A stretch of 64,000 bases of DNA, from the NCBI RefSeq assembly GCF_022458985.1, contig NC_061771.1, forward strand, positions 21,711,501-21,775,500, read 5' to 3'. How positions within the stretch are numbered: position 1 is the stretch's first letter; every line of letters begins with the position of its first letter. The notes below the pieces were generated by a model. The model made no database searches. It was not told the origin of the DNA and worked only from the letters and a program-made list of their open reading frames with translations. Below, piece after piece: positions 2,393 to 52,740 of the stretch. Position numbers and translations under genes: made by a program. The DNA comes from Mugil cephalus (lineage: Eukaryota; Chordata; Actinopteri; Mugiliformes; Mugilidae).

Positions 2393-4049
2393 AAACTAGA
2401 AATGTTTTGTGCATTTGGTGGGAACACAAACTCACAATAGAGCTCAGTTAAGATTACACAACACTGCCTGAAGTCATGTAGCTTGGTCACAACACTCAGA
2501 TCTCAGATCCTATCATCCATTATCTCATCTTACTCATCACTTTCCCTTTTGTACATATGGAGTATTTATTGTTACGATCAGTCTTCTCTGTGTTCTTGTG
2601 TATAACATCGTAGATTATTAATATATAGTCCAGCGTTCAAAGACTACAGGTGTATGTTAAGGTTTGTTATCCTACCCAGAGTGCCAAATGAGTAGGGTAT
2701 GCATGTATGAGGCAACAAAGTGAAGACTCGTGTCATTATTTGGTTTCCAGCATTGTCATTTCAGACAGTGTGAAATTCGATTTAGAAAAAAAAGGTAAGA
2801 AAGAATGTCTACACTTTGTTGATTTGGGGCCAGTGCATCTAAATATTTACATTTTCCAAATGCTGGTACTGTACTGGAACTATTTTGGCATGGAAAGTGT
2901 AATTTATGCCAACTGAAAATGTATGAGTGCTTAGAAAACTTTTCAGCAAACATGCAAAATACGATTATACATATTGTATAATACTACCATATTGATACAT
3001 GTACTGACAGTTGCTTTTATTTATTAAATTATCTGTAATTATCTGTAAATGCATCAAAACAAAAATAAATAAAAGAAAGTCGTGTGGATATTTTTGTAAG
3101 TTTATGCACCAAACTGTCTCATTAAAAGGAAAATTCAAATGATGAAACTTTAGCACTTACATAGAAAATAAATAATTTCTTATATGGAAGGTATTTAAGT
3201 TAGCGATGCAGGTTTTGTCTGTAAGATTTTCTTTGACTAACTCTTTCTATTTATGTCTCAGTTTTATTATGTGACTCAGTAGGCAGATAGCTAGCTAACA
3301 TTAAACACTGCTAACCTTATTCCAATGCACACAACACTGTCTTCATGGAAGCCATTGATTCACTGATTATATTCTAATTTAAGCTAAATGTGACTTTGTC
3401 TGTTTAAATATTAAGCTTTACAAAAAAATACAAAAAAAAAAAGACTTTTGGTTTCTCTGAATTCATTTGACACGTTTAATGGTTAATATCTACCTTAAAC
3501 ATTTGATAATCACATAGCTTTAAACATAAATGTCAAGTCAGTACGTTGTTATATGTTTTACACGTGGATGTATTATGAGTGAATGAATGAATGCTTTATT
3601 TCGAACATGTAACAAAAAAACAGGAAGAAGCCTCACGCTCATTTAATGCTACCCCTTCTCAATTTAACATCTACGTCCTGTGTGTTTGTTTTTCTCTTCT
3701 CCTTTTTGTCGTCTTCTTTTCCCCTTTTCACATGCTCATAAATATATAGATTTTGCATATTCCGCCCCCATCCACCCCCCACAAACAAATTATATACCCC
3801 CTCTTTTTTTTAAAAAAAAAAAAAAGGTTTTGAATGTTACCTACTGTACAAGTAGGTTCTTTATTGGTTTATTCAGAATTTGCGTACGTGATTTCATATT
3901 ATGGGGAAAGTATAAAGCAAAACGTTTACGTATTTCAGTGTGAACAGGAAGTTTTGTATTTACCTCTGCGCCGATCGAGTACTCTGGGTTTCCACTGCTC
4001 GTGTCTGTTCGCGTCGCGGGAAATTTGAACTAAATCGATACCCGCACGA
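2393..4049. other. rdh8 3' UTR and intergenic spacer with a LINE-type tail
   Basis: AT-rich, without a supportable gene. AATAAA-like signals near 3064 could end rdh8 transcripts. At about 3585-3830 a stretch reading GTTCGAAATAAAGCATTC on the minus strand, with a GAAT run at its end, resembles the 3' tail of a fish retroposon. It is followed by an A/T homopolymer block at about 3807-3826. The family assignment is from memory of similar tails. Confidence 0.4.
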
Positions 4050-16081: not shown

Positions 16082-20058
<3,977 letters not shown>

Positions 20059-25746: not shown

Positions 25747-28408
25747 TTGAACTATTTAAATCCAGAGTCAGAGTTATTTCACAGAGTTGATCAGATGAGT
25801 GTTAGTTTAACTCTGCAAAGACATTATTAATCTCCGCATTTTCTCCTGCACGTCACTTCTTCAGTACTATTTTCCTCCTCTCGCATGTCAAACACGGTAA
25901 GTGAAATTTAGTTAAAACTTACTAAAACAATTATGAATTGATGTTGTGAACTGCAGTACGTACATTAATACGTCGAATATATACTCTTCAAAGCCTTGTT
26001 TGTTGCCAGGACTGAACAGTAAATTTGTCCACGTGTGGTGAGCTAGCAAGATAACGTTAGCTTAATTAGCTAACTGCTAGTTACTAAAACTGTCTGTAAT
26101 TATCAATGACGAATTAACAACAAGCTGCTGTTATCTTTTTTTACTGTTAAAAGTCTTGTTTGAGGCTGGAGCGACCACGAAGGGCGCAGCTAAAAGCTAA
26201 GCACGGCTAATGCTAAACGCTAGCTTAATTAGCTAGTTCGGCGGCTAACTCATCTGCTAACTGTAGATCATCCCTATGTAGGACATGTTTTTAGCTTATG
26301 CTAAAGCGCTATTTCTCCTGTCTTGTCTGTGTGACCGGGACTTATCTTACCCTTATTCCTGTTAATGTTAATTTACTTGTGAATATTTTTTTGCATGTCC
26401 AAGTAAAAAGATGCTGGTACAGGTAAAGCACAACAGACATGAGAAGTATGTGAAGTTGGCCGAGGTAGAAGGAAACTTTGACTTTCTTCAATCCCACGAA
26501 AATGGTAAGTTATTTTTCTTTAGCTTAAAGGCTTTGAAAAACGAGTTTAAAAACACACACATGCTGTTTTATAACCTCTTTCTGCTTTCCTCACATATCT
26601 TGAAAATATTATTCACTTTTGAGGAGCTGAAATTTCCTTTTTTCTCAAAACATTATGCAAATTGATGTTTATCAATATAGTTAATACATTGAATAGTATT
26701 ATCTTACAACTTTGCCACCAGATGCACAAGTCATTTACAAGGACAAAACAGTGACAGAAGTCGATGAAGAAATATTCAGCGACCTGGTTGGACAAGGCAA
26801 TGTGGTGCTGACAGTTTTCTCAAATGATGGTGAGATATAAATGCAAATATAATCAGGCACTCTACAGAATAAGATAACTTACTTCTTTTAAAAAAAAATC
26901 CTTTAGAGTTTTGTGATTGGTCCTTGTCTTCGGCTTCTGAGTCGGACTCAAGCTTCAGCTCAAATACATCGACTGTAAACATGGATGAGGTCCCAAGGAA
27001 GAGACGACGATTTGAAGATGCAAATGCAGCGTCTGCTAAACAGGTTCACTTGATTCTCATGAGTTTAACATTTTTGCATTTTTCAGTCTCCAGAAAAGTT
27101 GTTAATAACCATGTTTGACATTCTTGTGGTTTTGTTTTTTAATTAGTTGATAGACGCTGTGCTTAGAGGCAAGTCCGGTGGTGAAGAGGTGCTACAGGAG
27201 AACTGAAGAACAGAAACATTAACAGATGCTGCAAGACGGCAAATGGTGAAACATACTGGTGGCTCACGTGATTGATAACCATGGGTATGTGTGTTTTATA
27301 TTCTTTTTGTTATTGCCAAACAACTGTATGGCCATTGCATACATTTGGGTCACTAATTTATTATCCCCTCTCAGGCACCTCCCCATTAAAGCGATCGTAG
27401 AAGAGTTTGCTCTTGGTATCGTGATGCTGTTTCCTTCCCTCAAGGATCCATATTCCAAGAAAGGCTTTGTAAATCATTATTATTGTTTTCATGACACTTG
27501 CATGTTGAGATGCAAAGTCGTGTACTTGACTTTGACATTTGAATTCTCAGATTTGTCATGAGCCAAGTATGACAATGCTTTTTTTTTTTTTTCAGGAACA
27601 CTTCTTTGATCCTACAAGCAACACAGGATACGTTTCTTGGCGTCTGAAAACAGTCCAAAGGCAGATTTGTCGAGGGTCTGCAACGCCACCAAGTAGCTCC
27701 ATTGTCTTTTCTCCAGGAGGCCCAACTTTCCAAAGGATTGTTAATGTTGAAGGACAGTGTGGAGTATAAAGCTGGACTTGTTGTGTGCTGTACAGTGGAA
27801 GAAGACATGCCAGTCTTTTTTGAAATAAGTGATGTACTTTTGGTTGATAATCACATTTTTTTTCTGACAAACAAGCTATTCACAGAGAATTTTGATGGCC
27901 ATCATCATGCGTTCAGTGTTTTGCGAAGTGAAGGAAGGTCATAAACATGTCAAAGCTTAAATGTTATAAACTGTTTGATATTCAAAGCTCATACAATGTT
28001 TCAGATGAAACTTTGTACATTATACCTTTATTTGTGATGTTTTGAACGACTGCAAGGGAGGAAAAATAAATGCTAGTTTAAAAAATTATATTGATTGGAA
28101 TTATTTTAAAATACATATTAATTTTAATACTGTTTCACTGTTAGCTTAACATGTTAGGGAGTTAAATGGACGCTACCAAATAGTAAAAAAATGAACTCTG
28201 AGCAGTGTTACTCGTCCAATCCCTTAGTGTTAATTTAACTCTGTTTTGGGAGTTAAAGAAGGAACTCTGGCAAAGTGTTAAATGTTTAACTATTTTGAAA
28301 GTGTTAATTTAACTCTGGAGAGTGTGGAGCTAAATAAACCCTCAAAAAGTGTTGAAATCAACTCTGTGGGAGTTAATTCAACACTGGACTTTTTGCTGTG
28401 TTGAACTA
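25747..28408 (+). mobile_element. Gene-carrying DNA transposon, copy 1 (with TSDs)
   Basis: Element body 25755-28400, flanked by TTGAACTA at 25747-25754 and 28401-28408. The left end (TCCAGAGTCAGAGTTA, then ACAGAGTTGAT) is an imperfect inverted match of the right end (CCAGTGTTGAATTAACTC and ACAGAGTTGAT on the minus strand). The palindromic word AGTGTTAATTTAACTCT or close variants occurs near both ends (25798-25814, 28226-28242, 28300-28316, 28348-28365). The interior carries the pseudogene described separately. No transposase is seen, so it is non-autonomous. The 8-bp duplication is hAT-like. Confidence 0.75.
25850..28080 (+). pseudogene. Captured multi-exon gene, SAMD3-like/uncharacterised fish family, copy 1
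   Basis: A 5' non-coding exon ends at a donor near 25896 (AACACG|GTAAGT). Coding exons follow: about 26411-26503 (MLVQVKHNRHEKYVK), 26722-26829 (DAQVIYKDKT), 26908-27041 (Ser-rich, then a VPRKRRRFEDA basic patch), 27148-27285, 27375-27468 (ALGIVMLFPSLKDPYSKKGF), 27598-27738 (ISWRLKTVQR type) and a C-terminal piece to 27944. AATAAA lies near 28063. The N-terminus looks like a small ubiquitin/PB1-like fold. The LFPSLKD...SWRLKTVQR part resembles multi-copy fish proteins annotated SAMD3-like; that link is from memory. Lesions here: the acceptor of the second coding exon is deleted, a TGA in the fourth coding exon, and a one-base insertion after RRQMV. Introns are retained, so it is not a processed copy. 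Confidence 0.6.
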
Positions 28409-29285: not shown

Positions 29286-31290
29286 TGTAGCGATCCTGCA
29301 GTAAGGTTTCCAATGTTTTAATGTTCATGTTAGAGTTCTGTGTTTTCCCACGGTCTGTGAACGTGTTGTGATGAGTGTGAGAGGGAGGGGCCGTGGGAGT
29401 GAGGGAGAGGGGGAGTGAATGGAGCCCGACTGAAGAGTGAAGTTGAAGTTTGAGATTGTGCTTGTTCGTGTTGTTGTTTTGGCGTGGTTACGGCCGACAG
29501 TAACCAAGACGTTCTGCAATAAAGGCAAGTTTGTTTAATAACGCCTCATTATTTGTCACGAACGCTACGTTGGTGTCAGAAGTAAAACCGCCGAAGTTTG
29601 ACTGGCTAACTTCCGCTAGCGCGGACCTGGCAAATTCATGGCAGCACAGCGGAAAATGACCGGAGCTCGTCCGAAAATCATAGAGGAGCCGATGGACAGT
29701 GCTTATGCCGGTATGTCAGGGCATGAGGCGGAGTTTCACCGTGCTTCAGAGCGTGTTGCTCACATAAAGCAGTCAGCTAGAGAGGCTGGTCTCGGCCGGC
29801 GGGAGAACGCGCCGCAGAGCTGAATGTAAACAAAGATGGCGGCGCCCGCTATAACCAGGTTCAAGTGAAGACGCCGAAATACTCCGGTGGGGCGGACTGG
29901 GAGGCCTTCCACGCCCAATTTGAACTCTTAGCACGGGCTGCAGGCTGGTCAGAGGACATTAAAGCGCTCCAGCTGGCCCTGTGCCTTACAGATGAGGCTT
30001 TGTCATGCTTGCTGCTGCATTGTCCAGCCGAAAGAGAGGACTATGGAGCTCTAGTGGGAGCTCTGCAGCGCCGTTTTGGACAATGCAACCAGCCTGGTGT
30101 TCTGCGCTCAGAACTGTCAAACAGGAAGAGGCAGGCCGGGGAGCTGCTCCGGGCATTGGCTAATGACATTGAAGCCCTGACAAGGAGAGCGTATGCAAAC
30201 ATGTCCCCTGAAGTGCAGAGTGAACTGGCCAGGGACCAGTTCATCCGGGCCATAACTCCCAGGGAGCTGCACATACAGACACAACTAGCGCGCCCCCAAA
30301 ATCTGCAAGAGGCGCTGGAGCTGGCCTTGGAAAGAGAGATCATCGGAGACACCACAAGTAATGGCATCAGTGGCGACCCTGTGGTGAGAACCGCGGTGCA
30401 GGAGGGCCCAGACCAAGCGAAGCCGGCATGGGCAGATGAGCTGACTGAATTGATCCGTGCTGCGTCACTGCAGTCGCCGCGCCTCGTCGAGGCCCTCCTG
30501 TGTGTTGGGTGTGTGGTCAGTCCGGCCATATCAGCGTGAGGTGCCCCAAGCAGGCTGGTGTCCAGGGAAACGCTCCGGGGTCTGTGTAGACGGGACGACA
30601 CAGACCTCTGTCCCTGTTTCCCTCCATGCTTTGTTGCCTCGGGACAGAGCCCAACTGTACAGACGGGGGAGCGGGGCTCCACTTCCCCCAGAAGCAGATG
30701 ACAACACCGAGGCTGCGAGAGTGGTGGGATGGACCCACATGGGGTATTTCTGCCATGTCCCCATCACCCTGGCAGGGGCCCCATGTATAGCTCTCGTCGA
30801 CACCGGCTCCACGGCAACACTGATGAGACCCGGCCTGGTCCCAGCGGGGATACAGCTGGAACCTACTGTGGTGAAGCTGTGGACAGTGACTGGTGAGCTA
30901 ACCCCTATGCTTGGAAGAGGGGTGGTGGCTATACAAGTGGGAGGGCTCTCAGTGAACTTTAAAGTGTGGGTTGCCCCTTTCACCCACATCCCGTATCCCT
31001 GCTGTTGAGCAGCCCCCGCCCCTGACCCGCAGCCCACAGCAGGTGAGGAGGACAGACTGGCAGCAGTACGAGAGATATGGAGGCGCAGCTGTGATAACCT
31101 GGAGCCCGGGCAGCAGCAGGAGTTGTGGCAGTTGTTGCTGGGCTTTAAGGACATTTTTGCTCTAACAGAAGAGGAGGTGGGCCTGACACACCTGGTGCAG
31201 CACGAAATTGATACCGGCGATGCGCGGCCCATCAATACACGCCCCCGCCGCCTTCCCATGAGGCACCAAGCTGCTGCAGACAGTGCTATT
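29286..31290 (+). mobile_element. Truncated Ty3/gypsy-type retrotransposon, copy 2
   Basis: The 284-bp LTR (29286-29569) is nearly identical to copy 1 but ends ACG rather than ACA. A gag frame runs 29865-30539 and includes a Cys-rich end (CVGC) that looks like a degraded zinc knuckle. A protease-like segment at about 30700-31008 keeps an Asp-Thr-Gly-Ser motif. Sequence stops at about 31290, before reverse transcriptase, where module A begins. No integrase or 3' LTR. The frame between gag and protease is broken. Confidence 0.87.
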
Positions 31291-33041: not shown

Positions 33042-35681
33042 TTGAACTATTTAAATCCAGAGTCAGAGTTATTTCACAGAGTTGATCAGATCAGTGTTAG
33101 TTTAACTCTGCAAAGACATTATTAATCTCCGCATTTTCTCCTGCACTTCACTTCTTCAGTCAGAACTATTTTCCTCCTCTCGCATGTCAAACACGGTAAG
33201 TGAAATTTAGTTAAAACTTACTAAAACAATTATGAATTGATGTTGTGGACTGCGATATGTACATTAATACGTTGAATATATACTCTTCAAAGCCTTGTTT
33301 GTTGCCAGGACTGAACAGTAAATTTGTCCACGTGTGGTGAGCTAGCAAGATAACGTTAGCTTAATTAGCTAACTGCTAGTTACTAAAACTGTCTGTAATT
33401 ATCAATGACAAGTTAACAACAAGCTGCTGTTATCTTTTTTACTGTTTAAAGTCTTGTTTGAGGCTGGAGCGACCACGAAGGGCGCAGCTAAAAGCTAAGC
33501 GCGGCTAATGCTAAACGCTAGCTTAATTAGCTAGTTCGGCGGCTAACTCATCTGCTAACTGTAGATCATCCCTATGTAGGACATGTTTTTAAAAACTAAG
33601 CGCTGTTTATGCTAAAGCGCTATTTCTCCTGTCTTGTCTGTGTGACCGGGACTTATCTTACCCTTATTCCTGTTAATGTTAATTTACTTGTGAATATTTT
33701 TTTGCATGTCCAAGTAAAAAGATGCTGGTACAGGTAAAGCACAACAGAGAAGTATATGAAGTTGGCCGAGGTAGAAGGAAACTTTGACTTTCTTCAATTC
33801 CACGAAAATGGTAAGTTATTTTTCTTTAGCTTAACGACTTTGAAAAACAAGTTTAAAAATACACACATACTGTTTTATAACCTCTTTCTGCTTTCCTCAC
33901 ATATCTTGAAAATATTATTCACTTTTAAGGAGCTGAAATTTCCTTTTTTCTCAAAACATTATGCAAATTGATGTTTATCAATATAGTTAATGCATTGAAT
34001 AGTATTATCTTACAACTTTTTTTCCAGTTCTTGAGAGATTTTGCCTGCCACCAGATGCACAAGTCATTTACAAGGACAAAACAGGGACAGAAGTCGATGA
34101 AGAAATATTCAGCGACCTGGTTGGACAAGGCAATGTGGTGCTGACAGTTTTCTCAAATGATGGTGAGATATAAATGCAAATTTAATCAGGTCCTTGGTCC
34201 TTGTCTTCGGCTTCTGAGTCGGACTCGAGCTTCAGCTCAAAAGCATCGACTGTAAACATGGATGAGGTCCCAAGGAAGAGACAACGATTTGAAGATGCAA
34301 ATGCAGCGTCTGCTAAACAGGTTCACTTGATTCTCATGAGTTTAACATTTTTGCATTTTTCAGTCTCCAGAAAAGTTGTTAATAACCATGTTTGACATTC
34401 TCGTGGTTTTGTTTTTTTATTCATTGATAGAAGCTGTGCTTAGAGGCAAGTCCGGTGGTGAAGAGGTGCTACAGGAGAACTGAAGAACAGAAACATTAAC
34501 AGATGCTGCAAGATGGCAAATGGTGAACGTACTGGTGGCTCACATGGTTGATAACCATGGGTTTGTATGTTTTATATTCTTTTTGTTTTTGCCAAACAAC
34601 TGTATGGCCATTGCATACATTTGGGTCACTAATTTATTATCCCCTCTCAGGCACCTCCCCATTAAAGCGACCAGAGAAGAGTTTGCTCTTGGTATCGTGA
34701 TGCTGTTCCCTTCCCTCAAGGATCCATATTCCAAGAAAGGCTTTGTAAATCCTTATTATTGTTTTCATGACACTTGCATGTTGAGATGCAAAGTCGTGTA
34801 CTTGACTTTGACATTTGAATTCTCAGATTTGTCATGAGCCAAGTGTGACAATGCTTTTTTTTTTTTTTCAGGAACACTTCTTTGATCCTGGAAGCAACAC
34901 AGGACACATTTCTTGGCGTCTGAAAACAGTCCAAAGGCAGATTTGTCGAGGGTCTGCAACGCCACCAAGTAGCTCCATTGTCTTTTCTCCAGGAGGCCCA
35001 ACTTTCCAAAGGATTGTTAATGTTGAAGGACAGTGTGGAGTATAAAGCTGGACTTGTTGTGTGCTGTACAGTGGAAGACATGTCAGTGTTTTGTGAAATA
35101 AGTGATGTACTTTTGGTTGATAATCACATTTTTTTTCTGACAAACAAGCTATTCACAGAGAATTTTGATGGCCGTCATCATGCATTCAGAATATTGCCAA
35201 GTGAAGAAAGGTCATAAACATGTCAAAGCTTAAATGTTATAAACTGTTTGATATTCAAAGCTCATACAATGTTTCAGATGAAACTTTGTACATTATACCT
35301 TCATTTGTGATGTTTTGAACGACTGCAAGGGAGGAAAAATAAATGCTAGTTTAAAAAATTATATTGATTGGAATTATTTTAAAATACATATTAATTTTAA
35401 TACTGTTTCACTGTTGACAACTTAACACTTTAGGGAGTTAAATGGACGCTACCAAATAGTAAAAAATGAACTCTGAGCAGTGTTACTCGTCCAATCCCTT
35501 AGTGTTAATTTAACTGTGTTTTGGGAGTTAAAGAAGGAACTCTGGCAAAGTGTTAAATGTTTAACTATTTTGAAAGTGTTAATTTATCTCTGGAGAGTGG
35601 AGCTAAATAAACCCTCAAAAAGTGTTGAAATCAACTCTGTGGGAGTTAATTCAACACTGGACTTTTTGCTGTGTTGAACTA
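33042..35681 (+). mobile_element. Gene-carrying DNA transposon, copy 2 (with TSDs)
   Basis: Body 33050-35673, flanked by TTGAACTA at 33042-33049 and 35674-35681. Ends and subterminal palindromic words are as in copy 1. Confidence 0.75.
33140..35340 (+). pseudogene. Captured multi-exon gene, copy 2
   Basis: Same exon order as copy 1. The second coding exon keeps its acceptor here (tttttttccag before TTCTTGAGAG at about 34028), and the RRQMVNVLVAH join is in frame, unlike copies 1 and 3. Its own lesions: a 5-base deletion in the first coding exon near 33750, deletion of most of the intron and acceptor before the Ser-rich exon (near 34190), and a TGA in the VLQEN region. The three copies are therefore broken at different places. 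Confidence 0.6.
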
Positions 35682-37046: not shown

Positions 37047-37250
37047 TTTAAACAAATGAAACTGCAAACACAAATCAATAAAGTTGTTTTATTTACATGA
37101 CGTGAAAAATGTAAGTGTAATATTAAACGACACGAATCGTTAACATATAGACTATAAAGTGCATCCTGTTGCTGCCCTTGTCATTATTCATAGGTTGTTA
37201 CTTGTCCGCCCGCTTGAGATCAAATCGGGCTGTATGTGGCCCTTGAACTA
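37047..37250 (-). mobile_element. Module D copy 3: hAT-type relic end
   Basis: Same block, ending at the left TTGAACTA (37243-37250) of the shrunken transposon copy. Confidence 0.65.
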
Positions 37251-37506
37251 TTTAAATCCAGAGTCAGAGTTATTTCACAGAGTTGATCAGATCAGTGTTA
37301 GTTTAACTCTGCAAAGACATCATTAATCTCCGCCTTTTCTCCTGCACGTCACTTCTTCAGTCAGAACTATTTTCCTCCTCTCGCATGTCAAACACGGTAA
37401 GTGAAATTTAGTTAAAACTTACTAAAACAATTATGAATTGATGTTGTGGACTGCGATATGTACATTAATACGTCGAATATATACTCTTCAAACCTTGTTT
37501 GAACTA
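37243..37506 (+). mobile_element. Shrunken gene-carrying transposon, copy 4
   Basis: Only the first ~250 bp of the element remains (37251-37498): the left terminal sequence, 5' non-coding exon and start of the intron. It then jumps straight to the right-hand TTGAACTA (37499-37506) and the hAT flank. The break falls at CCTTGTTTGAACT, so a short TTG microhomology could explain the deletion. Confidence 0.8.
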
Positions 37507-40741: not shown

Positions 40742-42824
40742 TGTAGGGATCCTGCAGTAAGGTTCCCAATGTTTTAATGTTCATGTTAGAGTTCTGTGTT
40801 TTCCCACGGTCTGTGAACGTGTTGTGATGAGTGTGAGAGGGAGGGGCCGTGGGAGTGAAGGAGAGGGGGAGTGAATGGAGCCCGACTGAAGAGTGAAGTT
40901 GAAGTTTGAGATTGTGCTTGTTCGTGTTGTTGTTTTGGCGTGGTTACGGCCGACAGTAACCAAGACGTTCTGCAATAAAGGCAAGTTTGTTCAATAACGC
41001 CTCAGTATTAGTCACGAACGCTACGTTGGTGTCAGAAGTAAAACCGCCGAAGTTTGACTGGCTAACTTCCGCTAGCCCGGACCTGGCAAATTCATGGCAG
41101 CACAGCGGAAAATGACCGGAGCTCGTCCGAAAATCAAAGAGGAGCCGATGGACAATGCTTATGCCGGTATATCAGGGCATGAGGCGGAGTTTCACCGTGC
41201 TTCAGAGCATGTTGCTCACATAAAGCAGTCAGCTAGAGAGGCTGGTCTCGGCCGGCGGGAGAACGCGCCGCAGAGCTGAATGTAAACAAAGATGGCGGCG
41301 CCCGCTATAACCAGGTTCAAGTGAAGACGCCGAAATACTCCGGTGGGGCGGACTGGGAGGCCTTCCACGCCCAATTTGAACTCTTAGCACGGGCTGCAGG
41401 CTGGTCAGAGGACATTAAAGCGCTCCAGCTGGCCCTGTGCCTTACAGATGAAGCTTTGTCATGCTTGCTGCTGCTTTGCCCAGCCGAAAGAGAGGACTAT
41501 GGAGCTCTAGTGGGAGCTCTGCAGCGCCGTTTTGGACAATGCAACCAGCCTGGTGTTCTGCGCTCAGAACTGTCAAACAGGATGAGGCAGGCCGGGGAGC
41601 CGCTCCGGGCATCGGCTAATGACATTGAAGCCCTGACAAGGAGAGCGTATGCAAACATGTCCCCTGAAGTGCAGAGTGAACTGGCCAGGGACCAGTTCAT
41701 CCGGGCCATAACTCCCAGGGAGCTGCGCATACAGACACCACTAGCGCGCCCCCATAATCTGCAAGAGGCGCTGGAGCTGTCCTTGGAAATAGAGATCATC
41801 GGAGACACCACAAGTAATGGCATCGGTGGCGACCCTGTGGTGAGAACTGCGGTGCAGGAGGGCCCAGACCAAGCGAAGCCGGCATGGGCAGATGAGCTGA
41901 CTGAATTGATCCGTGCTGCATCACTGCAATATCGGGGGTTGTGATGGTCAATAAGAAGAAGAATCCAAAGATGAGGTTCTGTGTCGACTACAGGCCCCTA
42001 AACAGTGTGACCAAGAAAGACTCGTACCCGCTGCCCCGCATCGACGAATCTCTGGACTTGGTGTCCGGCTCATCTTGGTTTTCCTCCTTAGACCTTTGCA
42101 GTGGATGTTGGCAGGTGCCCCTCAGCCAGACCAAAGACTGCTTTCTGTACCGGCAGATGGTTGTGGCAGTTCCGAGTCCTCTGCTTTGGCCTGTGCAACG
42201 CCCCGGCCAAGTTCGAACAGCTGATGGAGAAGGTGCTGAGTGACATCCCCCGACAGGAGTGTCTGGTCTACTTGGACGACATACTGGTCCACGGGGACTC
42301 TTTCCATGCAGCCTTGGGGGCCCTGCGGCGGGTTCTACAGAGGATATCGGCGGCCGGCCGAAAGCTTCACCCAGACAAGTGCTGCTTCATGAGGAGAGAG
42401 CTGGAGTTTCTGGGGCACAGGGTTGGGGAAGATGGCATTAGCACATTACAGGAGAAGGTGCAAGCAGTGAGAGACTGGCCGGTCATCACTAACTTGCGTG
42501 AGCTGAAGAGCTTCATCGGACTGGCGTCTTATTACAGGCGGTTTGTGCGCGGCTTCTCTTGCATAGCTGCAGCCCTGTTCCGCCTGCAGCAGAAAGACAG
42601 TGATTTTTCTTGGACTCCTGAGTGCGAACAGGCCTTTAGCTCTTTGAAGAAGGCCTTGACAGAGTCTCTGGGTCCTCACCCCCCCAGACCCCAACCTGCC
42701 ATTCGTCTTGGACACAGACGCCAGCGATGTTGGGATGGGGGCGGTGCTGAGTCAGGTCGGGGCGGAGGGGGAAAAAGTGGTGGCGTACTTCAGTAAAACT
42801 TTCAACAAAGCTGAACGGCGCTAG
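40742..42824 (+). mobile_element. Truncated Ty3/gypsy-type retrotransposon, copy 3
   Basis: LTR 40742-41025, gag frame 41321-41944, then a deletion joining gag directly to reverse transcriptase. RT motifs are visible: FCVDYRPLNSVT, SSLDLCSGCWQVPL, VYLDDILVHG, EFLGHRVGEDGI and LKSFIGLASYYRRFV (about 41941-42640, with frame changes near 42165 and in the C run at 42680). An RNase H start (DTDASDVG) follows. The sequence stops at 42824 where a GTPase gene copy begins. This domain order (RT then RNase H) and the protease type support Ty3/gypsy. No integrase or 3' LTR. Confidence 0.9.
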
Positions 42825-44019: not shown

Positions 44020-46625
44020 TTGAACTATTTAAATCCAGAGTCAGTTATTTTACAGAGTTGATCAGATCAGTGTTAGTTTAACTCTGCAAAGACATCATTA
44101 AGCTCCGCATTTTCTCCTGCACGTCACTTCTTCAGTACTATTTTCCTCCTCTCGCATGTCAAACACGGTAAGTGAAATTTAGTTAAAACTTACTAAAACA
44201 ATTATGAATTGATGTTGTGAACTGCAGTACGTACATTAATACTTCAAATATATACTCTTCAAAGCCTTGTTTGTTGCCAGGACTGAACAGTAAATTTGTC
44301 CACGTGTGGTGAGCTAGCAAGATAACGTTAGCTTAATTAGCTAACTGCTAGTTACTAAAACTGTCTGTAATTATCAATGACAAGTTAACAACAAGCTGCT
44401 GTTATCTTTTTTTACTGTTTAAAGTCTTGTTTGAGGCTGGAGCGACCACGAAGCTAAAAGCTAAGCGCGGCTAATGCTAAACGCTAGCTTAATTAGCTAG
44501 TTCGGCGGCTAACTCATCTGCTAACTGTAGATCATCCCTATGTAGAACACGTTTTTAAAAACTAAGCGCTGTTTATGCTTAAGCGCTATTTCTCCTGTCT
44601 TGTCTGTGTGACCGGGACTTATTTTACCCTTATTCCTGTTAATGTTAATTTACTTGTGAATATTTTTTTTTGCATGTCCAAGTAAAAAGATGCTGGTACA
44701 GTTAAAGCACAACAGACATGAGAAGTATGTGAAGTATTTTTCTTTAGCTTAAAGACTTTAAAAAAACAAGTTTAAAAATACACACATACTGTTTTATAAC
44801 CTCTTTCTGCTTTCCTCACATATCTTGAAAATATTATTCACTTTTAAGGAGCTGAAATTTCCTTTCTTCTCTAAAAATTATGCAAATTGATGTTTATCAA
44901 TATAGTTAATGCATTGAATAGTATTATCTTACAACTTTTTTCCAGTTCTTGAGAGATTTTTCCTGCCACCAGATGCACAAGTCATTTACAAGGACAAAAC
45001 AGGGACAGAAGTCGATGAAGAAATATTCAGCGACCTGGTTGGACAAGGCAATGTGGTGCTGACAGTTTTCTGTAATGATGGTGAGATATAAATGCAAATA
45101 TAATCAGGCACTCTACAGAATAAGATAACTTACTTCTTTATGAAAAAAATCCTTTAGAGTTTTCTGATTGGTCCTTGTCTTCGGCTTCTGAGTCGGACTC
45201 GAGCTTCAGCTCAAAAGCATCGACTGTAAACAACGATTTGAAGATGCAAATGCAGCGTCTGCTAAACAGGTTCACTTGATTCTCGTGGGTTTAACATTTT
45301 TGCATTTTTCAGTCTCCAGAAAAGTTGTTAATAACCATGTTTGACATTCTTGTGGTTTTGTTTTTTAATTAGTTGATAGAGGCAAGTCCGGTGGTGAAGA
45401 GGTGCTACAGGAGAACCGAAGAACAGAAACATTAACAGATGCTGCAAGACGGCAAATGGTGAAACATACTGGTGGCTCACATGATTGATAACCATGGGTA
45501 TGTGTGTTTTATATTCTTTTTGTTTGTGCCAAACAACTGTATGGCCATTGCATACATTTGGGTTACTAATTTATTATCCCCTCTCAGGCACCTCCCCATT
45601 AAAGCGACCAGAGAAGAGTTTGCTCTTGGTATCGTGATGCTGTTCCCTTCCCTCAAGGATCCATATTCCAAGAAAGGCTTTGTAAGTCATTATTATTGTT
45701 TTCATGACACTTGCATGTTGAGATGCAAAGTCGTGTACTTGACATTGACATTTGAATTCTCAGATTTGTCATGAGCCAAGTATGACAATGCTTTTTTTTT
45801 TTTTCAGGAACACTTCTTTGATCCTGGAAGCAACACAGGACACATTTCTTGGCGTCTGAAAACAGTCCAAAGGCAGATTTGTCGAGGGTCTGCAACGCCA
45901 CCAAGTAGCTCCATTGTCTTTTCTCCAGGAGGCCCAACTTTCCAAAGGATTGTTAATGTTGAAGGACAGTGTGGAGTATAAAGCTGGACTTGTTGTGTGC
46001 TGTACAGTGGAAGAAGACATGCCAGTCTTTTGTGAAATAAGTGATGTACTTTTGGTTGATAATCACATTTTTTTTTCTGACAAACAAGCTATTCACAGAG
46101 AATTTTGATGGCCATCATCATGCGTTCAGAATATTGCCAAGTGAAGAAAGGTGTGTCATAAACATGTCAAAGCTTAAATGTTATAAACTGTTTGATATTC
46201 AAAGCTCATACAATGTTTCAGATGAAACTTTGTACATTATACCTTTATTTGTGATGTTTTGAACGACTGCAAGGGAGGAAAAATAAATGCTAGTTTAAAA
46301 AATGATATTGATTGGAATTATTTTAAAATACATATTAATTTTAATACTGTTTCACTGTTAGCTTAACATGTTAGGGAGTTAAATGGACACTACCAAATAG
46401 TAAAAAAATGAACTCTGAGCAGTGTTACTCGTCCAATCCCTTAGTGTTAATTTAACTCTGTTTTAGGAGTTAAAGAAGGAACTCTGGCAAAGTGTTAAAT
46501 GTTTAACTATTTTGAAAGTGTTAATTTAACTCTGGAGAGTGTGGAGCTAAATAAACCCTCAAAAAGTGTTGAAATCAACTCTGTGGGAGTTAATTCAACA
46601 CTGGACTTTTTGCTGTGTTGAACTA
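44020..46625 (+). mobile_element. Gene-carrying DNA transposon, copy 3 (with TSDs)
   Basis: Body 44028-46617, flanked by TTGAACTA at 44020-44027 and 46618-46625. Same ends and subterminal palindromic words. Confidence 0.75.
44110..46285 (+). pseudogene. Captured multi-exon gene, copy 3
   Basis: Same exon order. Here the fourth coding exon reads CGA where copies 1 and 2 have TGA, so that stop probably arose by CpG decay in the others. Its own lesions: loss of the end of the first coding exon and its donor (near 44733), a deletion removing the VPRK basic patch start (near 45230), and the same one-base insertion after RRQMV as copy 1. The C-terminal segment (EYKAGLVVCC, DNHIFF) is intact but its join to the upstream exon is out of frame. 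Confidence 0.6.
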
Positions 46626-47960: not shown

Positions 47961-48183
47961 AGTGTTTAAACAAATGAAACTGCAAACACAAATCAATAAA
48001 GTTGTTTTATTTACATGACATGAAAAATGTAAGTTTAATATCAAACGACATGAATCGTTAACATATAGACTATAAAGTGCATCCTGTTGCTGCCCTTGTC
48101 ATTATTCATAGGTTGTTACTTGTCCGCCTGCTTGAGATCAAATTGGACTGTATGTGGCCCTTGAACTAAAATGAGTTTGATAC
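47961..48183 (-). mobile_element. Module D copy 5: hAT-type relic with empty TTGAACTA site
   Basis: Reads continuously through TTGAACTA (48161-48168) to GAGTTTGATACCCCTG, the hAT-type end. No gene-carrying transposon is present. Confidence 0.7.
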
Positions 48184-51504: not shown

Positions 51505-51742
51505 GTAAGGGTTTAAAGAAATGAAACTGCAAACACAAATCAATAAAGTTGTTTTATTTACATGACATGAAAAAATGTACGTTTAATATCAAACGACACG
51601 AACTCGTTAACACTCGTCAACATATAGACTATAAAGTGCATCCTGTTGCTGCCCTTGTCATTATTCATAGGTTGTTACTTGTCCGCCCGCTTGAGATCAA
51701 ATCGGGCTGTATGTGGCCCTTGAACTAAAATGAGTTTGATAC
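51505..51742 (-). mobile_element. Module D copy 6: hAT-type relic in the GTPase 3' flank, empty site
   Basis: Runs through TTGAACTA (51720-51727) to the hAT-type end. It carries a minus-strand AATAAA at 51553-51558 that could serve the GTPase transcript. This appears to be the parental context of the D copies. Confidence 0.65.
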
Positions 51743-51889: not shown

Positions 51890-52528
51890 CTACGACAGGA
51901 CGCAGCTGTCGTGCTTCTTCAGCGGGGGTCTCTTCTTCGCTGCCGTTCTCGGTATCGTGTCCCTGCGTCTCAACACTGCGGGGCTCAGCCGGTGCGGCAC
52001 ATTCACCTGCTGCAGCAGCGCGCTGAACACGCCCACAGCGTTCCCACCTGTGCGCGCGGACGCCTCCACAAAGTTGGCGTCCCACTCCCCCTCCACCGTG
52101 GCCATGGCCCCCACCGCGGGCACCACGCGACCCTCCGCCTCGGTCAGGTCCGCCTTGCTGCCGACCACCGTGATGGGCGCGCTCTTGTCGCCCCGCAGCT
52201 CCAGGATCTCGTCGCGGAGCCTCCGCACCTCCTCGAAGGACGCGGCGTCATCCACGGCGTACACCAGCGCGAAAGCGTCGCTGTTCCGGATGCGCAGCTG
52301 CCGCATGGCCGGGAACGAGTAGCTCCCGCTAGTGTCTAAAATCTCCAGACGCGTCTTCCCGGTGCTCGCGAGGTTGTCGTACTCCAGCACGTGGAGCTCC
52401 TCGACTGTGCGCGTGTACTTGTGCTCGAAGCGGTCGCGGAGGAAGCGGTGGATGAGCGCGCTCTTCCCGACCCCCGCTGCTCCGAGGAACACCAGCCGGA
52501 CGGTGACGGGATGTCCCGACTGAGACAT
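51890..52528 (-). CDS. Ras-like small GTPase (RASD/Di-Ras-like), intronless, intact
   Basis: A single open frame of 212 residues. The ATG at 52528 is chosen because the family core starts right after it (TVRLVFLGAAGVGKSAL) and a TATA box lies 50 bases upstream; an in-frame upstream ATG at 52699 would precede the TATA box. Visible: P-loop GAAGVGKS (16-23), effector-loop Thr in YTRTVEE, a G3 box DTSGS instead of the usual DTAGQ, G4 as GSKAD instead of NKxD, and G5 as EASARTG. The C-terminus is basic (KKRPPLKK) and ends CVLS, a CAAX box suited to farnesylation and membrane attachment. DTSG and FPAMR recall RASD1/RASD2 (Dexras/Rhes) and Di-Ras proteins. The altered G3 may lower GTP hydrolysis, as inferred for those families. 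The exact orthologue is uncertain. Pieces of this gene are scattered in the adjacent array. Confidence 0.88.
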   Translation of the reverse strand: MSQSGHPVTVRLVFLGAAGVGKSALIHRFLRDRFEHKYTRTVEELHVLEYDNLASTGKTRLEILDTSGSYSFPAMRQLRIRNSDAFALVYAVDDAASFEEVRRLRDEILELRGDKSAPITVVGSKADLTEAEGRVVPAVGAMATVEGEWDANFVEASARTGGNAVGVFSALLQQVNVPHRLSPAVLRRRDTIPRTAAKKRPPLKKHDSCVLS

Positions 52529-52577
52529 GCTGAGCCGAGGACGTGAGTCGTGTGTCACCCTCTGTCTTTCTGCGACT

Positions 52578-52585
52578 CTTTTATA
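52578..52585 (-). promoter_or_regulatory. TATA box of the Ras-like GTPase gene
   Basis: TATAAAAG on the minus strand, 50 bases upstream of the ATG, in a GC-rich setting. The 5' UTR would be about 20-30 bases. Confidence 0.65.
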
Positions 52586-52740
52586 GGCGGCTCCGCAACG
52601 ACCAGCCCCTATTACCTCCCACCCTCCTCTGCCCTGCGCGTGATATTGAGCACGATTAAAAACACACCACTCACAGAGTGGAACGTGCACTGGAAACACA
52701 AGTGATTCATGAATATATAGTGTTTTTTCTTTCCTTTTTT

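Follow-up and report, generated by a model that had tools for sequence, protein, structure and literature searches.

An intron-bearing element in Mugil cephalus as a probable deletion derivative of a two-gene, CACTA/EnSpm-related transposon

When exons and introns are found between the borders of a DNA transposon, has the transposon taken up a host gene, or is the gene its own? This question is raised by an element of about 2.6 kb in a 64,000-nucleotide stretch of the Mugil cephalus genome (NC_061771.1, positions 21,711,501 to 21,775,500 of the forward strand; hereafter the window, with all positions counted from its first base). The initial annotation saw in it a non-autonomous hAT-like transposon that had captured a whole multi-exon gene. 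Our findings indicate that the element very probably belongs, as a non-autonomous form with an internal deletion, to a family of fish DNA transposons that have inverted CACAG...CTGTG ends and TA target sites and are related to CACTA/EnSpm and thus to the CACTA, Mirage and Chapaev (CMC) elements. The relatives of this family carry an intron-rich gene (gene 1) followed by a transposase gene (gene 2), and because the element is a deletion derivative of such a two-gene transposon, the "captured gene" is most likely the transposon's own gene 1 rather than a gene stolen from the host.

The window copies and their interior

The stretch at 25747-28408 (2,662 bp, forward strand; copy A) is bordered on both sides by TTGAACTA (25747-25754 and 28401-28408), and the element proper occupies 25755-28400. 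The same target on the same strand holds copy B (33042-35681, 93% identical), copy C (44020-46625, 92% identical) and a remnant, D (37243-37506), which retains only about the first 250 bases of the element. In the window TTGAACTA occurs 11 times against 3.9 expected, and all occurrences but one, at position 4025, are copies of this single target. The left flank and 14 bases beyond the right repeat are common to A, B, C and D, and two units of the surrounding array, at 48161-48168 and at 51720-51727 (beside a Ras-family reading frame), present an uninterrupted single TTGAACTA with the same flanks and without the insert. With the target still unoccupied in these two units, an insertion that duplicated 8 bp at this site is certain, as had been proposed from the flanking repeats. 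The sharing of one target by copies A to D, together with the empty units, means that the copies were multiplied by segmental duplication and not by repeated jumping. Pairwise identity among A, B and C is 94-100% in exons and introns alike and lower, at 90.6%, in intron 3 (32 sites, in the pairs with B); copies B and C carry larger deletions. In remnant D the element breaks off inside its first intron, and a 3-base microhomology links this point straight to the right TTGAACTA, which looks like the outcome of repair after the right border had broken.

The interior of copy A begins with a truncated left end and a 5' non-coding exon (25755-25896, with donor GTAAGT at 25897), some 90 bases of the canonical left end being absent. 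Six coding-type exons of gene 1 follow, with GT/AG borders and retained introns. The first of these (26411-26504) opens with an ATG at 26411 and reads MLVQVKHNRHEKYVKL...; the next (26722-26829) is without its likely original acceptor stretch, which is present in B and C; the third (26907-27043) is serine-rich and contains KRRRFED; the fourth (27147-27284) is disrupted in copy A by an in-frame TGA and by a +1 shift; the fifth (27375-27468) reads HLPIKA..EEFALGIVMLFPSLKDPYSKKGF; and the last retained exon (27596-27757, EHFFDP..FSPGGPTFQR) ends near an internal-deletion junction. In A, B and C alike this exon continues into a stretch of 60-odd codons in another frame, the tail, which lies within the end of gene 2 (27758-27944, the junction base being approximate) and closes with the stop TAA. 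Beyond it lie the polyadenylation signal AATAAA (28065-28070) and the right end (28154-28400), with subterminal repeats GAGTTAA / AACTCTG and the canonical terminus ...GGACTTTTTGCTGTG. Neither the later part of gene 1 nor the core of gene 2 is present, and the window interior is an internal-deletion derivative that joins the first exons of gene 1, out of frame, to the last part of gene 2. The non-coding exon, the introns and the polyadenylation signal had thus been read correctly, with six coding-type exons in place of about seven; the gene is not whole. The retained introns also mean that the interior was not retrotransposed, so that the exclusion of RNA-mediated capture stands.

None of the three copies is open. 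With the non-coding exon counted as the first, the stop and the shift of copy A fall in its fifth exon, and its third is without the likely original acceptor; copy B has a 5-base deletion in the second exon, has lost the acceptor before the fourth and shares the stop with A; and in copy C the second exon is reduced by half, its donor included, the fourth by 25 bases and the fifth by 13. A working cargo, as once envisaged, is therefore not what these disabled copies hold. The pieces of gene 1 match no Pfam family at cut-off (sub-threshold matches only) and no PDB chain, and the tail gave only two weak PDB matches (expect value, E, 0.075 and 0.58). An AlphaFold2 model of the tail, mostly strands, has a mean pLDDT (predicted local distance difference test) of 64.6 and is too weak for use; Rfam and transfer RNA scans of the sequence returned nothing. 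We take gene 1 to belong to a multicopy "SAMD3-like" family, presumably large in teleosts; no search confirmed either its identity or its size.

Dispersed copies and two-gene relatives

The ends of the family emerge from other loci. Comparison of the outer 80 bases revealed no terminal inverted repeats at the borders of the window copy: the best match is the 12-bp CACAGAGTTGAT, situated 25 and 32 bases inside the two ends, and its score was equalled by 23 of 5,000 random window placements and 12 of 5,000 shuffles. The imperfect inverted ends described at first are accordingly not upheld, and they are lacking because the left terminus is truncated, as a search of the same genome makes clear (635 Mb, 24 contigs; queries with the element, gene 1 and the C17 form of the fused tail were answered, and the best candidates were scored, so that copy counts are lower bounds). 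Near-full copies were found on C22, C13, C16 (two), C8 (two) and C10, amounting to at least six further sites; partial and right-end-only matches were also among the genome matches. The C16 pair (L011 and L014; 419-447 kb) lies 25 kb apart with identical flanks and therefore represents one insertion, duplicated with its surroundings. Complete copies run from CACAGCAAAAA to TTTTTGCTGTG between TA dinucleotides and have about 90 more bases on the left than the window copy. In six of the dispersed copies, all but that on C10, the left end extends further, to CACAGC/GAAAAA, starting with CACAGCAAAAA or CACAGGAAAAA; the distance from the start to TCCAGAG is 99 bases in the C22, C13 and first C16 (C16a) copies, against 6 in the window copy. 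The right terminus is that of the window bar one base in C22 and in the second C8 copy (C8b), reading GCGGTG in C22, GCAGTG in C8b and GCTGTG in the others, and complete copies accordingly show CA..TG termini (CACAG...GTG). A TA stands to the left of CACAG in five of the six copies with a left end and to the right of the terminus in all seven, the C16 pair being one insertion. From these borders the normal target duplication of the family appears to be TA, of 2 bp. In the window the right flank after CTGTG is TTGAACTA, not TA, and this copy is left-truncated and inserted in a non-standard way.

These loci also order the events. The junction of gene 1 and gene 2 was recovered by exact pattern in six of the seven dispersed copies, with small differences just past it; in C8b the pattern was not found, yet the BLAST match spans the junction. 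Since the junction is common to the dispersed copies, the deletion came first and the shortened form moved afterwards. Interior and ends thus travel together at several loci, as a search with both had been expected to show, and the element is indeed a non-autonomous DNA transposon, whereas fresh 8-bp duplications, which had also been expected, were not found elsewhere, the other sites showing TA.

Two further sets of matches touch on the ends. The L012 copy (C10:27969600-27973290) is left-truncated at another point and has TA on its right; its flanks are joined only by a 6-base non-abutting repeat, and we judge it uninformative on non-standard duplication. Right-end-only matches occur at L017, L019-L024 and C5:11.546-11.576 Mb (four in 30 kb of C5) and suggest that there are shorter non-autonomous relatives. 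In seven such loci TA lies beside the CACAG terminus in four and AA in L023; the terminus pattern was not found in L019 and L024. Elsewhere in the window the ends have only weak matches (best E 0.006 by blastn with lax scoring; nhmmer E 7.2). No confirmed relative was found for the right terminus among viral and genome contigs, for the whole element among plasmids or for the tail among viral contigs, and gene 1 yielded pattern matches in viral contigs, phages and genome contigs, none of which was confirmed by tblastn.

The evidence that gene 1 belongs to the transposon comes from more distant elements. Relatives of gene 1 at 44-45% identity lie on C7 (759 kb), C17 and C13 (26.1 Mb) in the same genome. 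The C17 element spans 5,680 bp from CACAGTAAATT to AATTTACTGTG between TA dinucleotides, with ends identical at 22 of 24 positions, and contains exon-like stretches of gene 1 that begin at the second coding exon and reach a C-terminus ...VRPRLLH (E 1.4e-14 against window gene 1, within that locus). Gene 1 is followed there on its 3' side by a C2H2 stretch, behind which stands a homologue of the tail found in the window, about 2 kb of the middle of gene 2 being absent. When the genome was searched with this final stretch of C17, long reading frames emerged on C7 and C2. The C7 element (5,689 bp, TA on both sides) has gene 2 from C2H2 fingers (PF00096, E 6.3e-5, 23.6 bits against a cut-off of 25.2) onwards, with a transposase core and the C-terminal stretch, distributed over several reading frames, and gene 1 only in part; the contents of the C17 and C7 elements thus represent complementary deletions of one two-gene layout. 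The C2 element (L074, about 5.2 kb, with the same ends) retains portions of both genes at the DNA level, in another pattern of loss. In all three, gene 1 stands 5' of gene 2 sequence and both run in one direction. At C2:30.42 Mb (L065) the C-terminal part of gene 1 runs into the last codons of gene 2 in a DNA comparison, and C10:23.66 Mb (L072) is like it by reading frame only; both are apparently further internal-deletion derivatives.

The window tail itself matches gene 2 with E 6.4e-9 at the C7 locus and 1.9e-8 at the C2 locus; 200 shuffled tails did no better than 0.009 on the C7 locus. In the reverse direction, the C17 tail matches the end of the copy C tail (window 46089-46238) with E 1.9e-4 across the whole genome. 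The element's interior therefore ends in a piece of the gene that its relatives carry downstream of gene 1. Pieces of gene 2 match PF02992 (tnp2; E 0.017 and 0.04; 14.7 and 13.5 bits, cut-off 28.6) and then PF13960 (DUF4218; E 0.081 and 0.045; 13.2 and 14.0 bits, cut-off 27), all sub-threshold and in the correct order, PF13960 being, we presume, linked to CACTA. An H(3)H..EAKH motif is present in all four distinct loci (L060 and L073 being one locus, counted once) and GDYLG..C(2)C in three of the four; the D/E assignment follows from motif and not from structure. No hAT model was among the Pfam matches of the scanned gene 2 pieces, and one gene 2 frame searched against PDB gave no match. The call for an autonomous relative with the same ends was answered in part: relatives with similar ends do carry a transposase gene, and it is not a hAT transposase.

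These features resemble those of the CMCT group, whose members are described as having CA..TG ends in most cases, duplications of 2-5 bp and C(2)C / H(3-4)H motifs, and of the EnSpm-like elements with TA duplications (ESTA) described from fungi (PMC12730594). CA..TG termini, a short TA duplication and transposase motifs of the C(2)C and H(3-4)H type are shared with the CMCT clade of CACTA/EnSpm, Mirage and Chapaev; the multi-exon companion gene upstream of the transposase, the C2H2 fingers with which the transposase gene begins and the sub-cut-off Pfam scores differ from it. Non-autonomous EnSpm elements with terminal inverted repeats are known in zebrafish, for example EnSpmN6_DR (PMC3485254). 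That element is likewise from a fish, non-autonomous and of EnSpm type; the portion of its description available to us mentions no two-gene remains, whereas the element studied here, at 2.7 kb, has recognisable exons of two genes.

The transposon's own gene or a captured one

Taken together, a scheme can be proposed in which the family carried gene 1, intron-rich and without assigned function, followed in the same direction by gene 2, encoding C2H2 fingers and a DDE-type transposase. As the junction and the relatives show, the remainder of gene 1 and almost the whole of gene 2 were lost in one internal deletion; the shortened element would then have moved to at least five further places, presumably with transposase supplied in trans. 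The ancestor of the window copies would have been a copy with a full right end and without its left terminus that entered the TTGAACTA site, giving rise to the 8-bp duplication, and later segmental duplication, together with LTR (long terminal repeat) retrotransposon sequence, would have produced three copies and a remnant.

Several observations weigh against our reading of the element, and we acknowledge them here. No single examined element has both genes complete, and a full-length two-gene copy of the window subfamily was not found, a genome search with the window's own tail lying outside the scope of the analysis. The two-gene relatives are only about 45% identical to the window in gene 1, its first coding exon went undetected in the C17 locus, and the window tail gave nothing significant against the C17 and C13 loci (best E 0.49). 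The transposase matches in Pfam are all below threshold, two gene 2 pieces (L061:286-795 and L060:1360-1701) match no Pfam model, and L061 has an altered C(2)C motif. At the borders, L074 has CT/GC and not TA, leaving TA on both sides in two of the three two-gene relatives, C16a has GA on its left, and no empty counterpart turned up for any of the TA-flanked copies. The entry of a fragment into the window target is a step that we infer, the joining of an excised or broken transposon piece into a staggered break being the simplest account.

Among the other explanations, the one that survives best concerns the ultimate origin of gene 1 and is compatible with the reading just given. It is possible, although we regard it as somewhat unlikely, that the ancestor of the whole CACAG/TA family captured gene 1 long ago and that the gene has since been a resident accessory. 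In the C17, C7 and C2 elements gene 1 precedes the gene 2 sequence on its 5' side, and its want of a Pfam match at cut-off or a PDB chain means that nothing ties it to transposition; in this one genome, however, no host relative that could have been the donor was found. Concerning the window site alone, we doubt that an ordinary TA insertion was later altered, with the left end deleted exactly to the TA of TTGAACTA and TTGAAC added at the right border. The target does have TA as its last two bases, with the left flank continuing across it, yet this course needs two independent exact events, and a single 8-bp staggered joining would be simpler.

Recent capture of a host gene by a non-autonomous element, the explanation put forward at first, now appears very improbable. 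In its favour, introns and a polyadenylation signal are kept, and there are precedents: Pack-type capture by animal elements with terminal inverted repeats (Pack-TIRs) is documented in 370 cases across 100 genomes, 208 of them with hAT (PMC8277862), and in platyfish a Helitron took up a gene (PMC4021074). Both precedents resemble the window element, the first in having gene-like sequence between transposon ends, the second, texim, as a multicopy gene that travels with a transposon and is reported to serve either the element or the host, which of the two being unclear (PMC4021074). The likeness goes little further. Animal Pack-TIRs are reported to have mostly hAT or Tc1/mariner ends and host DNA inserts with a median of 224 bp (PMC8277862), far smaller than the interior considered here, which is shared with transposase-bearing relatives; texim involves a Helitron and an SGNH hydrolase, the window a terminal-inverted-repeat element and a different gene. 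More directly, the interior ends in a piece of a transposase gene, and relatives about 45% identical hold the same gene beside that transposase. Nor was a clear free-standing host gene 1 found among the best candidates when this one genome was checked exon by exon for a parental locus; the check yielded a small C4 fragment without ends, and loci on C20, C7 (759 kb) and C13 (26.1 Mb) at which ends are partly resolved.

That the element is a true hAT with degenerate ends is scarcely credible: the 8-bp duplication, proven by the empty sites, is hAT-like at the window site only and reflects one abnormal insertion of a copy without the family's left terminus, while complete copies have CACAG ends with TA borders and the transposase pieces match no hAT model and CACTA models weakly, so that hAT membership, tested on ends, target duplication and transposase, was rejected on all three.

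Local setting and significance

The element lies within a local array of nine copies of an LTR-like unit of about 0.7-0.9 kb (window 21854-51425), some pieces of which are inverted. The array includes gag-like reading frames, recognised by eye, at 29865-30539 and 41321-41944, the second without a Pfam match in our scan, and a reverse-transcriptase frame at 42101-42796 (PF00078). A portion of the 3' region of the Ras-family reading frame beside the empty site (51890-52699, minus strand; PF00071) recurs in the array. A protein-kinase reading frame (19582-20058, minus strand; PF00069), which we take to resemble PLK1, is also present in the window.

In summary, what appeared to be the capture of a gene is here read as the ordinary birth of a deletion derivative, and the case carries a caution: gene-like exons between transposon ends call for a search for the transposon's own genes. 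The window copy, for which empty sites are present, adds an example of a truncated DNA transposon whose insertion produced a non-standard 8-bp duplication. In the literature searched, a scope outside which Repbase and subscription journals lay, we recognised no description of the two-gene layout. Our findings suggest that fish carry a two-gene CACTA-like element and that its first gene may be annotated as a host gene family, and we see an even chance that the annotated SAMD3-like family, under the identity and size that we assume for it, is the accessory gene of such a CACTA/EnSpm-like transposon, perhaps aiding the transposase or opposing host control, its copies being transposon copies and their deletion derivatives.

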